Positions 40,471 to 49,321 of a stretch of 64,000 bases of DNA are shown here, one piece after another (position 1 is the stretch's first letter; every line of letters starts with the position of its first letter). The notes beneath the pieces were generated by a model. The model searched no databases and was not told the origin of the DNA. It saw only the letters and a program-made list of their open reading frames with translations. The translations under genes and the position numbers were made by a program. The DNA is from Sediminispirochaeta bajacaliforniensis DSM 16054. Its GTDB lineage: Bacteria; Spirochaetota; Spirochaetia; DSM-16054; Sediminispirochaetaceae. The stretch lies in the NCBI RefSeq assembly GCF_000378205.1, contig NZ_KB899410.1, positions 1 to 64,000 on the forward strand. Reading direction: 5' to 3'.

Positions 40471-40848
40471 CTATTGGCGATAGATGACGGACTTGATATG
40501 ACCTATCAGCTGATTGATGTTTACCGGTTTTGTCATGCAGGCTACAGGGGATAACTCATGTGCTTTTTCGATGAAAGATTCATTTGTATAGCCGGTGATA
40601 AAAATAATCGGGAGATTTTTGTGTATTTCCCTTAGGCGCCGCATCGCTTCTACACCGTCGATTTCTCCTGCCAATCTTCCATCCATAAGTACCAGATCGG
40701 GATTTCGGTTTTTTGCAAAGCGGACAACATCCTCCCCGGATGCGAAGATTTTGCTGATCGGATAACCGGCATTTCGAAGCTTCATTGTAAGATTCATGGC
40801 TATCATGGCTTCGTCTTCGACCAAAAGAATCATGTTTTCACTGTTCAT
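40471..40848 (-). CDS. single-domain response regulator
   Basis: 125 residues, a lone receiver domain. The acidic pair is E11/D12 in VEDEA, the phospho-acceptor D56 is in LVLMDGRL, the Thr is in FITGYT and the conserved Lys is in TKP. It carries no output domain, so it acts on a partner protein like CheY or Spo0F. ATG 40848 overlaps the kinase stop (ATGA) and is preceded by GGAGGAT within the kinase gene; a longer frame starting 51 bases earlier is not needed. The cognate kinase is encoded just upstream. Confidence 0.92.
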   Translation of the reverse strand: MNSENMILLVEDEAMIAMNLTMKLRNAGYPISKIFASGEDVVRFAKNRNPDLVLMDGRLAGEIDGVEAMRRLREIHKNLPIIFITGYTNESFIEKAHELSPVACMTKPVNINQLIGHIKSVIYRQ

Positions 40849-41870
40849 CGTAGATCCTCCAGTGTCGGATGGATGATACGCTTGAAGCGAATCGAGCATC
40901 TGAGCCCTCTCTCACCACGCTTATCGAATGCTATTGTTCCTCCCAGCTGATGTTCGATAATGAGGAAGATTGTCTGCATCCCGAGGGTCGATTGCGACCG
41001 AACATCATAGTTATGAGGAAGGCCGATGCCGTCGTCGCAGTACATGAGTTCGATTTCGTTCTCGGCCTCTATAAATGAGAGAGAAATTGCTATATTTCCC
41101 TTTTCCCCTTTCGGGAAGGCATGCTTTAGTGAGTTTGTAAATAACTCGTTTAGTACGAGCCCACACGGAATTGCCAGGTCAATAGGCACGGCAATGTGGA
41201 CGAGATCGAACCTCATTGCTATTGTATTTCCGCCGTTTTGGTAGCTTTTCAATAAGAGCCGTGCGAGTTTCTGGATATAGAGATCAAGATCAATACTGGA
41301 AAGGTTCTTTGATTCGTACAGCATTTGATGCACGAGCGACATTGATGTGATTTTAGTTTCTATCTCCTGTGATAACCGTATGAGGTTTTCATCTTCGGAA
41401 TAGGATGCGCTGAGGGAGATCATCGAACTGATGATGTTCATATTGTTCTTTGTTCGGTGATACAACTCCCGTATAAGTGTCTCTCGTTCGAGAAGTGCCT
41501 GACGGATACTCTCTTCTGTTCTGACTCGTTTGGTGATATCACGACCATATAGATTCGCATATCCCGATTCGACGATAGGGGCAATGGAGAAGGCGTAAAC
41601 CCGTGTTTTATGGGGAACATCAATCTCCATGCTCCGCGCTTCACTTAGTGACGATAATGCCGTTTCTCGTAAAAGTGGGGGGGCCGGTTGATCGAATTCC
41701 AGTTTCCATTCGTCGAGCAACATTCTGCTTGCCTTGTTTGCATAGATAAGCATGCCTGATGAATCAATTCTCAGGACTGGATTGGGATTCTCTGATGGAA
41801 AGCGCGACAAATCCTCGGTTGAAAGCCGGCTAAGAGGATCGTTACTATCGCCCTGGTATGAATGCTTCAT
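40845..41870 (-). CDS. cytosolic sensor kinase, HisKA_2 type, with PAS domain
   Basis: 341 residues without membrane segments. A PAS domain (NPNPVLRIDSSGMLIYANKAS, about 29-115) is followed by a HisKA_2 helix with the phospho-acceptor H138 in ELYHRTKNNMNIISSMISL and an HATPase domain (LVLNELFTNSLKHAFP, YCDDGIGLP, STLGMQTIFLI). The HxxxKNN pattern is diagnostic of this family, common in light, stress and general stress signalling pairs. It is coupled to the receiver gene by a 4-bp overlap. Its promoter predicts a start only about 4 bases before the ATG and no ribosome site is present. Confidence 0.9.
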   Translation of the reverse strand: MKHSYQGDSNDPLSRLSTEDLSRFPSENPNPVLRIDSSGMLIYANKASRMLLDEWKLEFDQPAPPLLRETALSSLSEARSMEIDVPHKTRVYAFSIAPIVESGYANLYGRDITKRVRTEESIRQALLERETLIRELYHRTKNNMNIISSMISLSASYSEDENLIRLSQEIETKITSMSLVHQMLYESKNLSSIDLDLYIQKLARLLLKSYQNGGNTIAMRFDLVHIAVPIDLAIPCGLVLNELFTNSLKHAFPKGEKGNIAISLSFIEAENEIELMYCDDGIGLPHNYDVRSQSTLGMQTIFLIIEHQLGGTIAFDKRGERGLRCSIRFKRIIHPTLEDLR

Positions 41871-41935: not shown

Positions 41936-41964
41936 TTGACTTATTGTATTAGTACAATTAGTAT
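41936..41964 (+). promoter_or_regulatory. sigma-70-type promoter for the YtrA/slipin/ABC operon
   Basis: TTGACT (41936-41941), 17-bp spacer, TAGTAT (41959-41964). Predicted start about 41971, adjacent to ATG 41973. Confidence 0.6.
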
Positions 41965-41986
41965 TGTATTATATGAATAGTACAAT
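41943..41986. promoter_or_regulatory. repeated YtrA-type operator half-sites
   Basis: ATTGTA-TTAG-TACAAT is a perfect palindrome filling the promoter spacer (41943-41958). A third half-site ATTGTA at 41963 keeps a 10-bp step, and a fourth, TACAAT, is at 41981. Helically phased half-sites across the promoter suggest cooperative autorepression by the adjacent GntR-family protein. Confidence 0.65.
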
Positions 41987-42374
41987 GAAAGCGCGAGGAG
42001 TTGTTATATCTCTTGATCCCGCCCGGGGAGTCCCCTTCTATCGCCAGATTATCCAGCAGATCGAGCATGCGATTCTTGGGCAACGGCTTTTTCCCGGAGA
42101 TAGACTACCGACCATCAGGGCTTTGGCGATAGACCTCAAGATAAATCCGAACACCATTGCAAGAGCCTATGGAGAACTGGAAATAAGAGGGATCGTTACA
42201 ACCCAGGTGGGAAACGGTACCTTTGTTTCGGATCAGCCTCCTTCGGAGGTGGACGACGAGCGGAATCTCAGAATCAGCGAAACCCTCGTCCGCTTTCTTC
42301 GTGACATGCGCGATCTCGGGGTCGAACGTTCTGAAGTCATCGATCTTGTTAAGAGTTTCAAGGAGGAAACATGA
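41973..42374 (+). CDS. YtrA-subfamily GntR transcriptional regulator
   Basis: About 133 residues: a GntR winged helix (VPFYRQIIQQIEHAILGQRLFPGDRLPTIRALAIDLKINPNTIARAYGELEIRGIVTTQVGNGTFVS) with only a short C-terminal helical tail, which defines the YtrA group. Such proteins usually repress ABC transporter operons that they head. The start may be ATG 41973 or 41985; neither has a ribosome site and the predicted transcription start touches the first. It overlaps the slipin gene by 4 bp. Confidence 0.9.
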   Translation: MNSTMKARGVVISLDPARGVPFYRQIIQQIEHAILGQRLFPGDRLPTIRALAIDLKINPNTIARAYGELEIRGIVTTQVGNGTFVSDQPPSEVDDERNLRISETLVRFLRDMRDLGVERSEVIDLVKSFKEET

Positions 42375-43477
42375 ACCTGTTCCAGAAGCATAGTAAAATG
42401 AAAACGCCGATCAAGAATACAAAGGTCCCCGAACGGCAAAGAGATTTTTCATTGAATGCCGTCGGCCTTGGCCTCTTGGCGGTTTTCTTTGGTGTCGGTA
42501 TGGCTATCAGGTTGGGTACAGGTGCTGCTCCTTCCCTCATAGAGTATGTTGTTCTGTGCACGACCCCAATACTGGCTATGGTGATCATGGCCCTTTTCCC
42601 TCGATGGACGTCGGCTGTGAAGCTTCTGATTATTTTCATTGCCATTCTGCTTGCATGGAAGATCAGTGAGGCTCCATACGCCATAGTTTTTGCAGCAGCC
42701 GGGGCCTTGCTTGCCCCCTCTGTGCAGAAGATGGCGGAATGGGAACGTGCCATCATTCTTCGTTTCGGGAAATTTCACAGGGTGAAAGGGCCTGGGCTTT
42801 TCCTTCTAATGCCTCTTGCCGAACGTGTTGCAAAGGTGGTGGATCTAAGGATTAGGGTAACTGATTTTACCGCAGAAACGACGTTGACCCTGGATTCGGT
42901 GACTGTGACGGTAGATGCCATCTGTTTTTGGCTGGTGTGGGATTCTGAAAAAGCGGTCTGTGAAGTTCAGGATTACGAAGATTCCGTCATTCTTTCTTCG
43001 AAAACGGCCCTTAGAAGTGCTGTCAGTAAAAATACCTTGTCGACTTTTCTTGAGCGTGGCGATGTGATAGAGGAACATATTAGGGAGGAGGTTGACAAAA
43101 AAACCACCGAATGGGGGATTACCGTTCAGCATATCGAAATAACGGATGTGCAGATCCCTGAAAAGTTACAGGATTCCCTGAGTCATCAGGCCCAGATGGA
43201 GAGGGAAAAGAAGGGGAGGATACTCCTTGCTGAGGCTGAGATCGAGATCGCCCGGAAACTTGAAGAAGCTGCCGAAATTTACGATGCTCATGATACCACT
43301 TTGCTGCTCAAGAGCTTTTCTATCCTGAATGAGGGACTAAAGGCTGGCAATTCTATGATGCTGGTACCCAATTCGATTGCCGAAAAATTGAAATCAAAAG
43401 ATGTCTTTGGCCTGCAGGCGTTGAACGAAATCAGACGCAACGCTGCAGAGAAGGAGGATAAGAATGGGCGTGGTTGA
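42371..43477 (+). CDS. slipin/SPFH (band 7) membrane protein with extended membrane N-terminus
   Basis: 368 residues. About four membrane segments (roughly residues 28-118) precede an SPFH domain that starts with EWERAIILRFGKFHRVKGPGLFLLMP and continues through VDLRIRVTDF, TLDSVTVTVDAICFWLVWD and the amphipathic/coiled region QMEREKKGRILLAEAEIEIARKLEEAA. Slipins oligomerise on membranes and organise protein or lipid microdomains. Ordinary slipins have one hairpin; the extra helices are unusual. It lies between the YtrA regulator (4-bp overlap) and the ABC ATPase (14-bp overlap), so it is probably an integral part of that transporter system. Confidence 0.88.
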   Translation: MNLFQKHSKMKTPIKNTKVPERQRDFSLNAVGLGLLAVFFGVGMAIRLGTGAAPSLIEYVVLCTTPILAMVIMALFPRWTSAVKLLIIFIAILLAWKISEAPYAIVFAAAGALLAPSVQKMAEWERAIILRFGKFHRVKGPGLFLLMPLAERVAKVVDLRIRVTDFTAETTLTLDSVTVTVDAICFWLVWDSEKAVCEVQDYEDSVILSSKTALRSAVSKNTLSTFLERGDVIEEHIREEVDKKTTEWGITVQHIEITDVQIPEKLQDSLSHQAQMEREKKGRILLAEAEIEIARKLEEAAEIYDAHDTTLLLKSFSILNEGLKAGNSMMLVPNSIAEKLKSKDVFGLQALNEIRRNAAEKEDKNGRG

Positions 43478-44147
43478 TACCATTGCGCTATATAAAGATT
43501 ATGAACTGAACGATTTGAAGATACATGCCCTCCGAGGTGTAAGCCTAAGCTTTGAGGCTGGGGCCTTTGCCGCTGTTGCAGGCCCTTCCGGAAGCGGTAA
43601 GTCCACCTTCCTGCACCTCGTCGGTTGTCTCGACACCCCTACGGCCGGTTCCCTCTCCGTCGATGAACGTGAGGTTGCCTCGCTCTCCCGTAACCAATCG
43701 GCACTCTTGCGACGGCAAAAAATCGGGTTCATCTTCCAGGCCTATAATCTGATACCGGTTCTTTCCGCCCTTGAGAATGTTTCTCTTCCGTTGGTACTGC
43801 TTGGAATAGAAAAGAAGGAGGCCCGGCAGCAGTCGCTTCGGGCTTTGGAAGAGGTCGGGCTGGGAGGTATGGAACATCGTCGGCCCAAGGAGATGTCCGG
43901 CGGTCAGCAACAACGGGTGGCGATTGCCCGTGCGCTGGTGAAAAAGCCGTCTCTGATCCTCGCTGATGAACCCACCGCTAATCTCGATTCGACCACAGGC
44001 AGGGCTATTCTCGATCTTATGCTTGCGTTGAATGAGAAAGAAGGAACGACTTTTATCTTTTCCACACACGATCCCATGGTAATGGAGTTTGCCCGCCGTT
44101 TGATAATGCTTCGGGACGGGATGGTTGAATCGGAGAGTCGACGATGA
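43464..44147 (+). CDS. ABC transporter ATPase, LolD/MacB type
   Basis: 227 residues. Walker A GPSGSGKST, Q-loop FQAYNLIP, signature MSGGQQQRVAIARAL, Walker B LILADEPTANLDS, and H-loop STHDP. The DEPTANLD form and the length are typical of LolD/MacB/FtsE ATPases that drive FtsX-type permeases in mechanotransmission rather than substrate import. It overlaps both neighbours (slipin upstream, permease downstream by 4 bp). It energises the two permeases encoded next. Confidence 0.93.
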   Translation: MGVVDTIALYKDYELNDLKIHALRGVSLSFEAGAFAAVAGPSGSGKSTFLHLVGCLDTPTAGSLSVDEREVASLSRNQSALLRRQKIGFIFQAYNLIPVLSALENVSLPLVLLGIEKKEARQQSLRALEEVGLGGMEHRRPKEMSGGQQQRVAIARALVKKPSLILADEPTANLDSTTGRAILDLMLALNEKEGTTFIFSTHDPMVMEFARRLIMLRDGMVESESRR

Positions 44148-45838
44148 GGTATTCCATCTCGGCAACCGTTGCCTCGATGGCATTACGGAATCTTGCACGG
44201 CATCGTGTCAAAACGGTTATTACCGCCCTTGCTGTGGCAGTAAGTGTCGCACTCTATATTTTCATGGATGGATGGCTGCTTGGGATGAACCTCGATTCAC
44301 GTCGGAATATCGTCTCCTATGAGATGGGGGCGGCAAAGATCCAGACCAAGGCCTATTTCAGCAAGAAAGATGAGCTTCCCATGTACGAGAGTTTTACCGG
44401 CTGGCAAGGCATAGCCTCGGCCCTGGAGCGCTCGGGCTATGATGCGGCCCCCCGTTTCGTATTCTCAGGTACCCTCTATTCCCGTACCGGTTCCGCTCCC
44501 ATCCTCTTTAACGCTATGGATCCCAAACGGGAACACAGGCTTTTGCGCTACACCGATTTTGTAGATGCCGGCCGCTTCCCTCGCTCCGGAAGCTTTGAAA
44601 TTGCTCTCGGGACAATGGCCGCGGAAAAATTACATGTAGGTATTCCTCGGCGCCCTTCGGAGAACCTTTGGGAGGATGAGGTCCTTGCCGCCACCCGGAA
44701 TGAAGAGGAGCGGGACTTTGTTCAGGGGCTCTATACCGAACGCTTTGAATCCGGAGAGGCCAAGATGGCCCTTCGCGACGATGTAACACATGAGGAGATC
44801 AATCGCCTATGGGATATCCTGTATGCTTCGGGGCGGATGGATGTACGGATATCGACGGTCATCGACATGATTGCCGCTCCCGAGAAAATTCGTGAGGAGC
44901 GTTTTGAGGAGGATTTGCTGCCGTCCCTTACGGCCGAGGACCGTCAGTTGATACAATCGGCCTATACACAGGATCCCTTAGTTGGTGATTATCTTCTTTC
45001 TACGGACGACAGCGATCTTCTCGACCGGGTCTTAAAGGCGATGACTGCAGCCGACTATTCCGGTGCCATCCGCCATGTAAATCAGCTCATTGATGCGGTG
45101 GTCGTCGGCATTATCAATTCACCGAATCCGAAGACAAACGGAAATATAGCATATATCCCTCTCGATGCCCTTCAGGGAACAGGCGGACTCATGTTGGACG
45201 GCGCCGTGACCGAGCTCTTGGTCCGGGCCTCGAACGCAAAGGATTCTGTTCTTCCTGGAAGCTTTGAGAGCCCTGATACGATTAAGTCGGCCCTTGTGAG
45301 CTCGCTTGCCGAAGAGGGGAAACGGTTTCCTTCCGAGCTTGTCGTCAAGGGGTGGGAAGATTATTCCGCCGATTATTTCGCGGCTTCCGCCGGGGACCAT
45401 GTCTCTACCCGCATCATGGCGCTTTTTCTCTTTCTTCTTTCGTTCATCGGCATTGCAAATACCATGCTGATGGCGGTGCTTGAACGGACAAAAGAGATTG
45501 GTATGATGCGTGCCCTCGGAATGACTGACGGTCAGCTTCTTTTCTCTTATGTGTTGGAGGCTGGTCTTGTCGGCCTTATCGGCGCTTCGGTGGGCGTGCT
45601 CTTGGGCTGTCTGATCAATATTCCCATGGTACATACCGGTATCGACTTTTCTTCCCTTGCAAAGCAGGCGGGTGGTGATTTTGGGTATCGTATTACCTCG
45701 CAGTTTCGGTCGGCATGGAACCCCAAGGTGATTGTGGGCACCGCTTTTATAGCAACGCTTCTTTCCGCTCTTATGGCCTTGCCTCCCACCTTCAGGGCTC
45801 TGCGGATGCCTGTCACCGAAAGCCTTCGTTTTGAGTGA
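44144..45838 (+). CDS. FtsX-type ABC permease 1 (LolC/E-like)
   Basis: 564 residues: an N-terminal membrane helix (VITALAVAVSVALYIFMDGW), a long periplasmic region (about residues 50-420), and three C-terminal helices with the FtsX signature IANTMLMAVLERTKEIGMMRALGMTDGQL. This 1+3 helix arrangement is that of LolC/LolE and MacB. The periplasmic domain is larger than in the second permease and may be the cargo-handling side. It is coupled by ATGA to the ATPase gene. Confidence 0.9.
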   Translation: MRYSISATVASMALRNLARHRVKTVITALAVAVSVALYIFMDGWLLGMNLDSRRNIVSYEMGAAKIQTKAYFSKKDELPMYESFTGWQGIASALERSGYDAAPRFVFSGTLYSRTGSAPILFNAMDPKREHRLLRYTDFVDAGRFPRSGSFEIALGTMAAEKLHVGIPRRPSENLWEDEVLAATRNEEERDFVQGLYTERFESGEAKMALRDDVTHEEINRLWDILYASGRMDVRISTVIDMIAAPEKIREERFEEDLLPSLTAEDRQLIQSAYTQDPLVGDYLLSTDDSDLLDRVLKAMTAADYSGAIRHVNQLIDAVVVGIINSPNPKTNGNIAYIPLDALQGTGGLMLDGAVTELLVRASNAKDSVLPGSFESPDTIKSALVSSLAEEGKRFPSELVVKGWEDYSADYFAASAGDHVSTRIMALFLFLLSFIGIANTMLMAVLERTKEIGMMRALGMTDGQLLFSYVLEAGLVGLIGASVGVLLGCLINIPMVHTGIDFSSLAKQAGGDFGYRITSQFRSAWNPKVIVGTAFIATLLSALMALPPTFRALRMPVTESLRFE

Positions 45839-45848
45839 GGAGCAGATA

Positions 45849-47135
45849 ATGGAGAATGTCATGGATAAAGAGCTGCGGGGGCAAGGTGATTTTCTCACCC
45901 TATCGACCATAGCGTATCGTAATATTTGGCGAAACGGTAGAAGGACAATCCTTTGTATTATCGCCGTTGCCGTTGCCGTCTTTTTTAATATTTTTATGCA
46001 GGCCTGGATTTCCGGGATGATAGAGGGGATAGAGGAGGCTGTAAGGACCTATGAAACCGGCCATGTCAATGTAGTTAGCAACCTGTTTGAAGAGGAACGG
46101 GAATACTATCCGGTTCAGTATCCCATTGCCGACGGGAAAAGTGCTACCGAACTCTCTGCCGAGATCGAGGCTCTTCCCGGTGTAAAGGCCGCCTTGCCGA
46201 GGATTACCACGTATGCCTCGCTTTTCGATAGTACGGTAAAACACGCCTTGCTTTGGGGCATTGATATACAGCGGGAGCGTGCGGTAAATGTTTTTAATTT
46301 GACCGATCGTGACGATGGTTTGATCGAAGGCCGTTTTCCCAGGGCCGGGAGTAACGAATGCGCCGTGGGCCTTGAGTTTGCACGGAAGGCCGGGGTGAAG
46401 ATCGGAGACCCAATACCTTTAAAAACAGTGTCCGCACAGTTTTCCGATAAATACTGGCGACCTGTGATAACAGGAATATTTGCGTTCGATTATCGAAAGT
46501 TCGACGAAGAGGTTATTCTCGTCCCCATTGATCGCCTCCAACGCATCCTTGTCTTGGGGGAGGCTACCCAACAGATGTTCATCTATGCCGAAAATGCCGA
46601 TGATGCCCTCCGTTTACGGGATGAAGTTGCGAAGATGTTAGGGCCGGGGCAAACGGTTCGCGAATGGGGGGATAACTACTGGGTTGCTTATATGCGGCAG
46701 ACCTCCTTTCTGTATGTCATTGTCTTTCTTGTTTTTCAAATTGTCGCCAGTTTTCTGATTATCAACACCGTTCTGATGATCATTCATGAGCGTATTAAGG
46801 AAATCGGTATGATGGGAGCCTTGGGGATGACTCGCAGAGAGATCGTTACCGTCTTCTTTCTGGAAGCTGTCTTTCTGAGCGTTTTGGGATCTGCCGTCGG
46901 CATGTTCTTCGGCGGGCTCGTAACATGGATAGGCTCTCTATTTCCTCTGGATATGGATACCTTTACCGGAGGCGGCATGAAGGAATTTCCCGTCTCAGGT
47001 ACCATTTTCATCACCTTCTCTCCGAAGATTCTCATGGAAGGGTTTGTCTTCGGTATCCTTGTCTCTTCCCTTTGTACGCTGATTCCTTCGTTGAAAAGTG
47101 CCTTCATTGAACCGGTAGAGGCCCTTCGGCGATGA
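45849..47135 (+). CDS. FtsX-type ABC permease 2 (LolC/E-like)
   Basis: 428 residues from ATG 45849, which has GAGGAG six bases upstream (a TTG 18 bases earlier would overlap the previous gene). One N-terminal helix (TILCIIAVAVAVFFNIFMQAW), a periplasmic domain of about 230 residues and three C-terminal helices with the hallmark NTVLMIIHERIKEIGMMGALGMTRREIV. It pairs with the upstream permease as a heterodimer, as LolC does with LolE. It overlaps nothing but is followed by the LolA-like gene within 50 bp. Confidence 0.9.
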   Translation: MENVMDKELRGQGDFLTLSTIAYRNIWRNGRRTILCIIAVAVAVFFNIFMQAWISGMIEGIEEAVRTYETGHVNVVSNLFEEEREYYPVQYPIADGKSATELSAEIEALPGVKAALPRITTYASLFDSTVKHALLWGIDIQRERAVNVFNLTDRDDGLIEGRFPRAGSNECAVGLEFARKAGVKIGDPIPLKTVSAQFSDKYWRPVITGIFAFDYRKFDEEVILVPIDRLQRILVLGEATQQMFIYAENADDALRLRDEVAKMLGPGQTVREWGDNYWVAYMRQTSFLYVIVFLVFQIVASFLIINTVLMIIHERIKEIGMMGALGMTRREIVTVFFLEAVFLSVLGSAVGMFFGGLVTWIGSLFPLDMDTFTGGGMKEFPVSGTIFITFSPKILMEGFVFGILVSSLCTLIPSLKSAFIEPVEALRR

Positions 47136-47182
47136 GTCCTCATCAAAATGCCCGAGCAATATCATGGGCAAAGGAGTGTACG

Positions 47183-47965
47183 ATGCAAAAGTATAATAGC
47201 TGCGGAAGATCCGAGATTGTGCCGGTGGTGCTGCTATGTGCTGCAGTTTTTTCTTTTTTCTTCTTATCCCCCGCGGTGGTGGAGGGCGAACCTTCAGCCG
47301 CCGAGCTGTTGGCACAAGTGGACGATAACGAGGTCTACGATACCATTACCTATACCGGGGAGATGATCATCGAATACCAGGGGCGCCGCTATGAAAAACG
47401 CTTTGAGGCTGTGGCAAAGGAAAACTCAGACAGCTTCATCGAATTCGTCAATCAGGAAGATCTCGGTACGAAGTATCTTAAACGAAGCGGTCGCCTCTAT
47501 GTCTATTCTCCCGATAGCGAACAGGTTATGCTGATTTCCGGTCATCTGCTGAAGGAGTCGATGATGGGCTCGGATCTTTCCTATGAGGATACCATCGAAA
47601 ATAATAAGATGTCCGACCGTTACAATCCGAGCCTCATCGGGAGTGATACCATCGACGGACATCCCGCCTGGGTGCTCGACTTAGCTGCCAAAAAAGAGAG
47701 TGAGAGCTATCCTCGGCGAAAGTTTTGGGTCGACAAAGAAAACGGTGATCTTCTTCATGCCGAATTTTACGCCTTGTCGGGTGCGAAGCTGAAGGAGTAT
47801 TCCCTGATTCGTGCGGATGTCATTCATGACCGTCGATTCCCTGTTGAGTTTGAGATGCGGGATTTGCTACGTAAGAATAGTCGGACCCTTTTCATTATGC
47901 ACGATGTGGTCCTGGATGCTCCGGTGAACGATTCGGTTTTCAGTATGCGGAATCTTGAAAGATGA
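47183..47965 (+). CDS. LolA-like periplasmic carrier (outer membrane lipoprotein-sorting family)
   Basis: 260 residues from ATG 47183 (AAGGAG upstream; an in-frame start at 47132 would add 17 residues before the signal). Signal peptide through about residue 35 (VVEGEPSAAELL follows). The mature part has the half-barrel pattern of the LolA-like/YjhA-type families: TYTGEMIIEYQGRRYEKRFEAVAKEN, YLKRSGRLYVYSPDSEQVMLISG, WVLDLAAKKESESYPRRKFWVDKENGDLL. Such proteins ferry lipids or lipoproteins across the periplasm. Its place after two Lol-like permeases makes it the probable carrier of the system. It overlaps the next gene by 4 bp. Confidence 0.87.
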   Translation: MQKYNSCGRSEIVPVVLLCAAVFSFFFLSPAVVEGEPSAAELLAQVDDNEVYDTITYTGEMIIEYQGRRYEKRFEAVAKENSDSFIEFVNQEDLGTKYLKRSGRLYVYSPDSEQVMLISGHLLKESMMGSDLSYEDTIENNKMSDRYNPSLIGSDTIDGHPAWVLDLAAKKESESYPRRKFWVDKENGDLLHAEFYALSGAKLKEYSLIRADVIHDRRFPVEFEMRDLLRKNSRTLFIMHDVVLDAPVNDSVFSMRNLER

Positions 47966-49200
47966 AACGGTGGCAAGGTTCTTTAGGGGCCGTGGCTTGC
48001 CGTCGGGGCCGCCTGTTTGGGCATGGTCTTATTATCGCCACGCTTTTCATGGTCGTTGCTATGCCGATTATTGCAGAACCTGTTTTTTCCGGTATTCTGA
48101 CTACAACCCTTGATACGGTAGCAGGAGCAGGAAAGGCCTCTGATTTTAGCTATGGCTCAGAGCAGTACGCCAATGTACGCATGCGCTCTTCTTTAGGCGA
48201 CCGGGCGGTTGTGCAAGCTGCGGTAAACCTTATCGCAGCAACGGGAAGCGGGGCCGAGACGCTGCTCTATTCGAACGACCAGGCGGAGAGCTCGACAGAT
48301 GATGAAAACTATGTGGCAAAGCTGGAGTTGGAACGGCTCTACGCACAGATTCGGGGAGAGGTGACCGATATCGAGTTGGGGCTTATGCGGGTTGCCTTTG
48401 GCTACGGTCAGGCCTTTCGTCCGACAGATTTTCTCAATCCTCCAAATCCTCTCTTGCCTGATGCAAGGCCAAGGGGGTCCCTTGGCGGGACCCTTGCTTT
48501 TTATCCATCTGACCTTACGAAGATCCTGTTTTTTTCCGCCGGAGGCGTTGATCCTCTGGAAACAGCTGGAGATGGGCTCCTTTTCGGTGCCTCCGGGGAA
48601 AACCACTGGTCTAACGTTAGTGTTCAGCTGCTCTACTCATTTCAGGCCCCTGATGAGGATTACTGGATGGGATTCCATCGGAGCGGCGTGTCTCTGAAGC
48701 TCGATACGGCTGTGGGGATTGTTCTCGATGCCCTCTATGGTTTTGATCCCGCTGATCCGGAGGGGTGGAGTGGACTTGAGGCTGCCTTGGGCTTGGATGC
48801 CTCTTTCTTTGACGGTGATCTCTACACTATTGTTCAGTACCTTTTTAATGGTCCCGGATACCTGGGACACTCGCAATCTATACGTGAGTTGGATACGGCG
48901 GAACTCAACGCAGAGGAGCTTTCCGACTACAACAGGAGGAATTACCTCTACGCTCAGGGAATCTATAGCCTTGATGACTATACACGTATCAATTTTTCCC
49001 TTCTCTTTACTCCCGACGATTTTTCTTGTTCACCAGCGATGGGTTTTGAATATGAACCTTTTCAGGGGTGCACACTGGCGATGACCGGACGCCTTTCCCT
49101 GGATGGTGAGTTCCTTTCTTCAGGAGAGCGGGGCGAGCTCGGGCCTATATTTGCCGGAACCTACGGCTCTGTTCATACCACTTTTACCCTTCGCTTTTAG
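47962..49200 (+). CDS. outer-membrane beta-barrel protein
   Basis: 412 residues. A signal peptide (LIIATLFMVVAMPIIAEP) precedes alternating strands with aromatic girdles, ending with an outer-membrane-type C-terminus HTTFTLRF (terminal Phe after alternating hydrophobics). Internal blocks LELERLYAQIRGEVTDIELGLMRVAFGYGQAFRPTDFLNPPNP resemble the DUF1302/porin-like strands of proteins found beside LolA-like and RND lipid exporters. It is the last gene of the operon and gives the system an outer-membrane end point. Confidence 0.75.
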   Translation: MKRWQGSLGAVACRRGRLFGHGLIIATLFMVVAMPIIAEPVFSGILTTTLDTVAGAGKASDFSYGSEQYANVRMRSSLGDRAVVQAAVNLIAATGSGAETLLYSNDQAESSTDDENYVAKLELERLYAQIRGEVTDIELGLMRVAFGYGQAFRPTDFLNPPNPLLPDARPRGSLGGTLAFYPSDLTKILFFSAGGVDPLETAGDGLLFGASGENHWSNVSVQLLYSFQAPDEDYWMGFHRSGVSLKLDTAVGIVLDALYGFDPADPEGWSGLEAALGLDASFFDGDLYTIVQYLFNGPGYLGHSQSIRELDTAELNAEELSDYNRRNYLYAQGIYSLDDYTRINFSLLFTPDDFSCSPAMGFEYEPFQGCTLAMTGRLSLDGEFLSSGERGELGPIFAGTYGSVHTTFTLRF

Positions 49201-49237
49201 GGACCGGCCATCTGTGAACACGAACGATGTATTTCCA

Positions 49238-49265
49238 TTGACAATTACGATATGAAGTGTAGAAT
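49238..49265 (+). promoter_or_regulatory. sigma-70-type promoter for the MtnA-like/ECF operon
   Basis: TTGACA (49238-49243), 16-bp spacer, TAGAAT (49260-49265); predicted start about 49272. Confidence 0.6.
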
Positions 49266-49280
49266 ACGAAATTGTAATAA

Positions 49281-49301
49281 AAATGTTGTGATACAACATT
49301 T
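49281..49301. promoter_or_regulatory. palindromic operator downstream of the start point
   Basis: AAATGTTGT-GAT-ACAACATTT, 9-bp perfect arms. It begins about 10 bases after the predicted transcription start, so a bound protein would block elongation. The RpiR regulator encoded at the end of the operon is the natural candidate to bind it. Confidence 0.6.
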
Positions 49302-49321
49302 AGCAACATATGGGAAGGTTT

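Follow-up and report, generated by a model that had tools for sequence, protein, structure and literature searches.

A conserved seven-gene operon of spirochaetes joins a YtrA-type regulator and a separable slipin gene to a predicted inner-to-outer-membrane transport line

The LolCDE–LolA pathway, the Borrelia cluster BBJ23–BBJ29 and the Bacillus subtilis ytr operon are the described systems closest to the locus analysed here, a seven-gene operon of Sediminispirochaeta bajacaliforniensis DSM 16054. It lies in a window of 64,000 nucleotides (the whole stretch of DNA that was analysed, positions 1 to 64,000 of contig NZ_KB899410.1) and encodes a GntR-family regulator, a slipin, an ATP-binding cassette (ABC) ATPase, two permeases (PRM1 and PRM2), a LolA-like carrier and an outer-membrane beta-barrel. 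The LolCDE–LolA pathway shares with it an ATPase, two LolC/E-fold permeases and a LolA-fold carrier. However, the operon differs in its profile scores, which lie below the equivalog level, in its ATPase motif, in a carrier of family PF17131 instead of PF03548, in a barrel as end station and in having its own regulator. LolA folds carry acyl chains, and transporters of the MacB/LolCDE fold work on the periplasmic side. The Borrelia cluster BBJ23–BBJ29 (PMC13078400) is alike in its spirochaete LolD-like ATPase, type VII permease, LolA-like carrier and outer-membrane barrel. Nevertheless, its single permease gene is accompanied by genes for two TPR proteins and an Omp85-type barrel and by one further gene, with neither slipin nor GntR regulator, whereas the present operon has two permeases, no TPR protein, an Occ/MOMP-like 18-strand barrel (as modelled), a slipin and a YtrA regulator.

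The ytrGABCDEF operon of B. subtilis combines a YtrA-type regulator with a MacB-type ABC transporter (YtrE/YtrF), and the structures of YtrF and YtrE match PRM1, PRM2 and the ATPase. However, it belongs to a monoderm, lacks carrier, barrel and slipin, and has an extra YtrBCD part (PMC12772383), beside which can be noted the GntR–slipin pairs that stand next to an ABC-2 transporter in some spirochaetes. The slipin of the operon shares the SPFH domain, and homology to stomatin and QmcA, with the slipin/stomatin family. The usual partner of that family is NfeD; in contrast, no NfeD gene is found among the seven operon genes, and the protein carries additional helices at its N-terminus, ahead of the membrane segment usual in the family. 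Literature searches for a slipin–GntR–LolA operon found no description, and none was found in the literature searched for the slipin cassette, its separability or the operator. BBJ23–BBJ29 follows the same principle with different terminal components, and in a monoderm the regulator and transporter have their counterpart in ytr.

Judged from sequence comparison, the operon can be read with reasonable, though far from full, confidence as a conditionally expressed trans-envelope exporter of an amphiphile, with the slipin as an exchangeable accessory. The latter role is proposed because the GntR–slipin pair and the transporter core each occur without the other. The original prediction, made from the letters and open reading frames, had placed an overlapping seven-gene run at 41973–49200; seven frames are present there on the forward strand, overlapping or nearly so. 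Pfam agrees with the domain identities proposed for the regulator, the slipin, the ATPase, both permeases and the LolA-like carrier. Together with gene order and operator, it supports the proposed trans-envelope delivery line, in which inner-membrane ATPase and permeases, periplasmic carrier, outer-membrane barrel and YtrA-type regulator form one co-transcribed run. The elements are as follows:

41936..41964, + strand: sigma-70-type promoter, TTGACT-17-TAGTAT (promoter scan)
41943..41958, + strand: operator half-overlap O1, perfect palindrome ATTGTA-TTAG-TACAAT, in the -35/-10 spacer
41963..41986, + strand: main 24-bp operator O2, ATTGTATTATATGAATAGTACAAT, spanning the -10 edge and the regulator start codon
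41973..42374, + strand: GntR-family regulator, YtrA-like, 133 residues (PF00392, 7.6e-16, residues 23-85)
42371..43477, + strand: slipin, stomatin-type SPFH protein with additional N-terminal helices (PF01145 Band_7/SPFH, 2.1e-31)
43464..44147, + strand: LolD/MacB-type ABC ATPase (ABC_tran, 4.7e-33)
44144..45838, + strand: PRM1, FtsX-type permease 1, 564 residues (PF02687, 3.6e-18)
45831..47135, + strand: PRM2, FtsX-type permease 2, 434 residues (PF02687, 1.2e-17; PF12704, 1.1e-12)
47132..47965, + strand: LolA-like periplasmic carrier, family PF17131 (9.4e-45)
47962..49200, + strand: outer-membrane beta-barrel, about 18 strands, C-terminal Phe (AlphaFold2 model, VIA matches, conserved position)

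A gene-order survey found the complete order GntR–slipin–ATPase–PRM1–PRM2–carrier–barrel in 31 other fetched Spirochaetota loci with unrelated flanks and protein identities down to 26–40%, so that the arrangement is not due to chance. Most of the other loci with slipin and transporter are truncated at a contig end. Searching 60 relatives for the slipin gave a bimodal result: 28 genomes reached at least 199 bits, and the others stayed below 95 bits with proteins of the HflK/C or QmcA kind. A LolD-type transporter adjoins the slipin in 24 of these 28 slipin-bearing relatives. At the level of the phylum, 44 of 393 evenly drawn genomes hold a slipin match above about 200 bits, several of them outside the class. 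A peptide-pattern search for named relatives returned no more than three loci from spirochaetes and one weak slipin match from an archaeon. In the distant group of loci, whose flanking genes differ from those of the window, identity to the window amounts to 33–40% for the slipin, 26–34% for PRM2, 26–32% for the carrier and 12–18% for the barrel.

The expectation that both slipin and carrier are conserved with the transporter proved right for one of them. The carrier (and the barrel) accompanies the transporter essentially throughout, whereas the slipin is missing in at least eight transporter-bearing genomes. These slipin-less operons were revealed by a PRM1-based search, and all retain carrier and barrel, with the sole exception of a partial second copy that has permeases only (L094). 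A TetR-type gene stands ahead of the core in G010, G035 and G053 (L089, L090 and L092), and this replacement of GntR suggests ligand-type induction. In G048 (L093), GntR alone, with no slipin, precedes the core, and no regulator was found in G012, G017, G021 and G059 or in the second copies of G003 and G041 (loci including L091, L096 and L097). The reverse separation is also seen. G004 (L079) has a GntR–slipin pair without this transporter, and in G042, G018 and G007 (L082, L083 and L085) the slipin lies beside an ABC-2 ATPase/permease set, with GntR where visible (the G007 contig ends inside the slipin, so that GntR cannot be seen). The slipin is tied to GntR more tightly than to the LolD-type transporter. 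In L079 (5939–8206), a D-Ala-D-Ala ligase gene lies 88 bp beyond the orphan pair, which may hint at a cell-wall signal.

The ABC-2 and orphan arrangements look derived, because they are nested at three places inside clade B of the slipin tree. The window and its congener (G001) group with Treponema-type families in clade A, but the two other genomes of their family (G002 and G003) belong to clade B, with support of 100/99 on both sides; family f34 is divided in the same way (G379 in A, G218 in B). This pattern reflects either a different sorting of ancient duplicates or movement of the operon between lineages. Correlations between gene-distance matrices range from 0.75 to 0.87 for slipin against core genes and from 0.82 to 0.93 among core genes, and the weaker slipin–core correlation is as expected for a part that would be mostly co-inherited yet exchangeable.

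The promoter region indicates that the YtrA-type regulator very likely controls its own promoter, which is interleaved with two palindromes (41943–41958 and 41963–41986). The right half of O2 is translated as the codons ATG AAT AGT ACA (M-N-S-T). An operator consensus, ATTGTAYTA-N6-TARTACAAT, is matched with at most four mismatches in 41 of 41 GntR promoters and with at most two in 38 of them (0 mismatches in 19, 1 in 14, 2 in 5, 3 in 2 and 4 in 1, where shuffles average 6–8); since some of these 41 promoters served to derive the consensus, the counts describe conservation and are not an independent test. A genome scan serves as the independent check, and sites with fewer than three mismatches occur solely at the operon promoter. 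With regard to a wider YtrA regulon in the same genome, matches with three mismatches are no more numerous than those of a reversed-pattern control. O1 is present as a single copy across the 4.57-Mb assembly, and TTGAC stands at the same operator offset (-27 or -32) in most homologous promoters. In clade A loci (the window, L061, L099, L100, L007, L109 and others), the right half-site holds the start codon and encodes M-N-S-T. The -10 box lies about 8 nt upstream of the start codon in these loci, a spacing from which the regulator message is probably leaderless.

The regulator has the size typical of the YtrA subfamily (a winged helix-turn-helix with a small dimerisation tail, 133 residues), a PDB profile search finds YtrA-size homologues of known structure (3by6, 4ham, 4r1h and 3neu), and its gene is kept in 27 of the first 30 loci. 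The predicted operator, a long palindrome of about 24 bp at the regulator's own promoter, is a further trait of the subfamily. A 24-bp motif with distant half-sites has been reported for bacterial YtrA regulators (PMC6746942). Size, homologues and operator uphold the YtrA-like part of the YtrA repressor originally proposed. YtrA proteins repress their own operons, and repression would be expected here from that precedent.

Both permeases display the traits of type VII (MacB/LolCDE) transporters, with the FtsX domain PF02687, four transmembrane segments by hydropathy (22–40, 424–442, 473–491 and 529–547 in PRM1; 40–58, 293–311, 338–356 and 400–418 in PRM2) and a large periplasmic domain after the first. 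PRM1 matches LolE, LolF, YtrF and MacB in the PDB, and PRM2 matches LolF, LolE and YtrF. In the subgroup of the window, PRM1 is about 140 residues longer than in most homologues, the addition lying within the periplasmic domain. Two PRM1-type genes per operon, and hence three permeases, are seen in L065, L103 and L105. The carrier matches LolA-superfamily chains (4z48, 3buu and 9tp6); it is LolA-like, as had been claimed, through PF17131, and it does not match the LolA family proper, PF03548.

The barrel protein has no Pfam family above cut-off, only sub-threshold matches. Its AlphaFold2 model (four sequences, mean predicted local distance difference test, pLDDT, 63) is an 18-strand antiparallel barrel, in agreement with the outer-membrane barrel predicted as last gene, and VIA aligns it with Z 19–21 over about 280–320 residues to Occ/OprD-type porins, Campylobacter MOMP and AlgE. 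Omp85 is absent among the Foldseek/VIA matches listed, which does not exclude an Omp85 identity. The gene keeps the same position in 40 loci. The model points, with moderate confidence, to the fold of an outer-membrane barrel and not to a function.

As for the slipin, its PDB profile matches are stomatin (1.6e-44) and QmcA (3.8e-33), and its SPFH/Band 7 domain is nearest to stomatin, as befits a slipin. The extra membrane helices proposed for it appear in hydropathy as three to four N-terminal hydrophobic segments (28–46, 59–77, 80–98 and, ahead of the SPFH domain, a less marked one). These exceed the single hairpin of stomatin and are similar in most homologues, with some shorter. Several of the Treponema-type slipin matches in G242, G333, G387, G394, G378 and G400 carry one in-frame stop in the aligned span, which may be an end effect or decay.

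The course of events that we infer from these parts, including repression, direction, class of cargo, carrier hand-over and slipin role, would be as follows. The YtrA-type repressor would occupy the 24-bp operator overlapping its own promoter and, following YtrA precedents, would be released by an envelope signal. The operon would then make a heteromeric ABC transporter of the MacB/LolCDE type (type VII), and the periplasmic domains of this transporter may expel an amphiphilic cargo from the inner membrane's outer leaflet. The PF17131 carrier would ferry this cargo in its hydrophobic cavity through the periplasm, and at the outer membrane the dedicated 18-strand barrel would take it up. Proteins of the SPFH family assemble into large rings, and the co-induced slipin might form an oligomeric platform in the inner membrane, organising or protecting this membrane around the transporters; it is best read as a membrane scaffold or protector and not as an obligate transporter part. 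By analogy, envelope stress or antimicrobials are plausible inducers. Flotillin-type SPFH proteins belong to the envelope stress response of B. subtilis and are induced under such stress (PMC8144471), and the B. subtilis ytr operon is induced by lipid II-cycle inhibitors (PMC12772383).

Several points weigh against such an exporter. The barrel model is shallow (four sequences, pLDDT 63), and an Occ-like barrel would not be obviously suited to lipid cargo. Because of its low identity in the distant group, the barrel is too divergent among loci to argue for one conserved cargo. A structure model of the slipin from four sequences reached a pLDDT of 46.7 and was left unused. In addition, a MacB-fold protein need not export across the envelope to act, BceAB being one example. 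A more specific form of the exporter must be regarded as tentative: a slipin-assisted, inducible conduit for lipid or glycolipid repair or export in spirochaetes, where a stomatin-type ring would mark or seal the inner-membrane patch at which a LolCDE-fold transporter passes an amphiphile to its dedicated carrier and barrel, the GntR–slipin cassette being a plug-in for different ABC transporters.

It is unlikely that the operon serves detoxification or efflux against membrane- or wall-active antimicrobials, with a drug or drug–lipid complex as cargo, as for MacB, Bce and Psd. The YtrA and TetR regulators fit this explanation, as do the matches of the ATPase to the structures of BceA, PsdA, MacB and YtrE (PDB) and the ligase gene beside the orphan GntR–slipin pair. 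However, neither a MacA-type membrane-fusion protein nor a TolC-type channel is found by Pfam among the seven operon genes, and a LolA-like carrier suits lipids, not drugs. Moreover, B. subtilis ytr, although induced, has no consistent role in antibiotic survival (PMC12772383), so drug induction alone would not make the operon a resistance pump.

A second, specialised Lol pathway, by which some of the lipoproteins would be sorted to the outer membrane, is quite unlikely. The ATPase lies between the LolD, DarD, DevA, MacB and FtsE models (NCBIfam profiles), with LolD as best model (224.5 bits); the permeases score 60.9 and, for PRM2, 104.5 bits with the LolC/E model, the carrier is LolA-like, and BBJ23–BBJ29 has been read as possibly serving lipoproteins (PMC13078400). 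Yet all scores are under the equivalog cut-offs (307.75 bits for TIGR02211 and 362.45 bits for TIGR02212), and the genome holds a better LolCDE candidate at C10:160751–164058 (ATPase 259.4 bits, permeases 211 and 206 bits) and its only PF03548 LolA match at C5:187533. The TIGR02211 cut-off is strict for this phylum, because the C10 LolD candidate falls below it too. Between Walker A and the signature, the motif of E. coli LolD is HHLLPDFTALENV. The C10 ATPase carries FHYLLKEFTAVENV at this position, whereas the operon ATPase lacks a LolD-type motif, with FQAYNLIPVLSALENV where it would stand and YNLIPVLSALENV as the motif region; most homologues have (Y/F)NLIPVL(T/S)A, in a comparison that leaves some homologue rows unparsed. 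No lipoprotein gene is co-encoded in the operon, its end station is a barrel, and its repressors are exchangeable. The separate Lol genes, the ATPase motif and the lack of a co-encoded lipoprotein mean that the operon is not the housekeeping Lol pathway, and the Lol-like lipoprotein line originally envisaged is not supported as stated.

Five PF17131 carriers are encoded in the genome: that of the operon, two beside other ABC permease sets (C5:164k and C15:107k) and two beside MMPL transporters. On the contig of the window, C5:159939–164849 (L024) combines another ABC ATPase and two permeases with a PF17131 carrier and a porin-like barrel (sub-threshold Porin_O_P match), with no slipin seen alongside. 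The sets at C1:314025 (L026) and C21:76561 (L027) resemble the operon in joining a transporter to a PF17131 carrier, C1 also having a DUF1302 barrel, but they are driven by MMPL/RND-type transporters and not by an ABC transporter. Since the other PF17131 carriers adjoin ABC or MMPL transporters, a carrier paired with its own transporter is a recurrent design in this genome, of which the operon is the slipin-bearing, regulated version.

It is also improbable that the slipin is an obligate structural subunit, or cage, of this transporter. The two are co-inherited and adjoin each other in most slipin-bearing relatives, and SPFH proteins form multi-subunit rings, with 16 chains in PDB entries of stomatin and 26 in one of QmcA. 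However, the slipin-less transporter operons, and the slipins that stand with ABC-2 transporters or alone in four genomes, argue against it. Finally, retrograde traffic, in which lipids would be removed from the outer membrane and returned to the inner membrane, is very improbable: carrier, barrel and ABC transporter could run both ways, and the sequence gives no direction, but MacB/LolCDE-type ABC transporters, where studied, extrude into the periplasm.

Downstream of the barrel gene, no intrinsic terminator is listed in 49200–49310, the regional count being at shuffle level. A strong promoter-like site, TTGACA-16-TAGAAT, lies at 49238–49265 of the window, between the barrel gene and the next, IF-2B-family gene; because it precedes that gene, it suggests a separate unit. 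Directly upstream of the operon, a divergent HisKA_2/HWE-type histidine kinase gene and a response-regulator-like gene occupy 40471–41870 on the - strand.

The movement of lipids and lipoproteins to the outer membrane in spirochaetes, many of which lack lipopolysaccharide, is largely an open question. With a conserved, complete and regulated inner-to-outer-membrane line that has a defined operator, the inducer, the cargo and the role of the slipin become directly testable, and the split between GntR–slipin pair and transporter core provides a concrete handle on bacterial slipin function.

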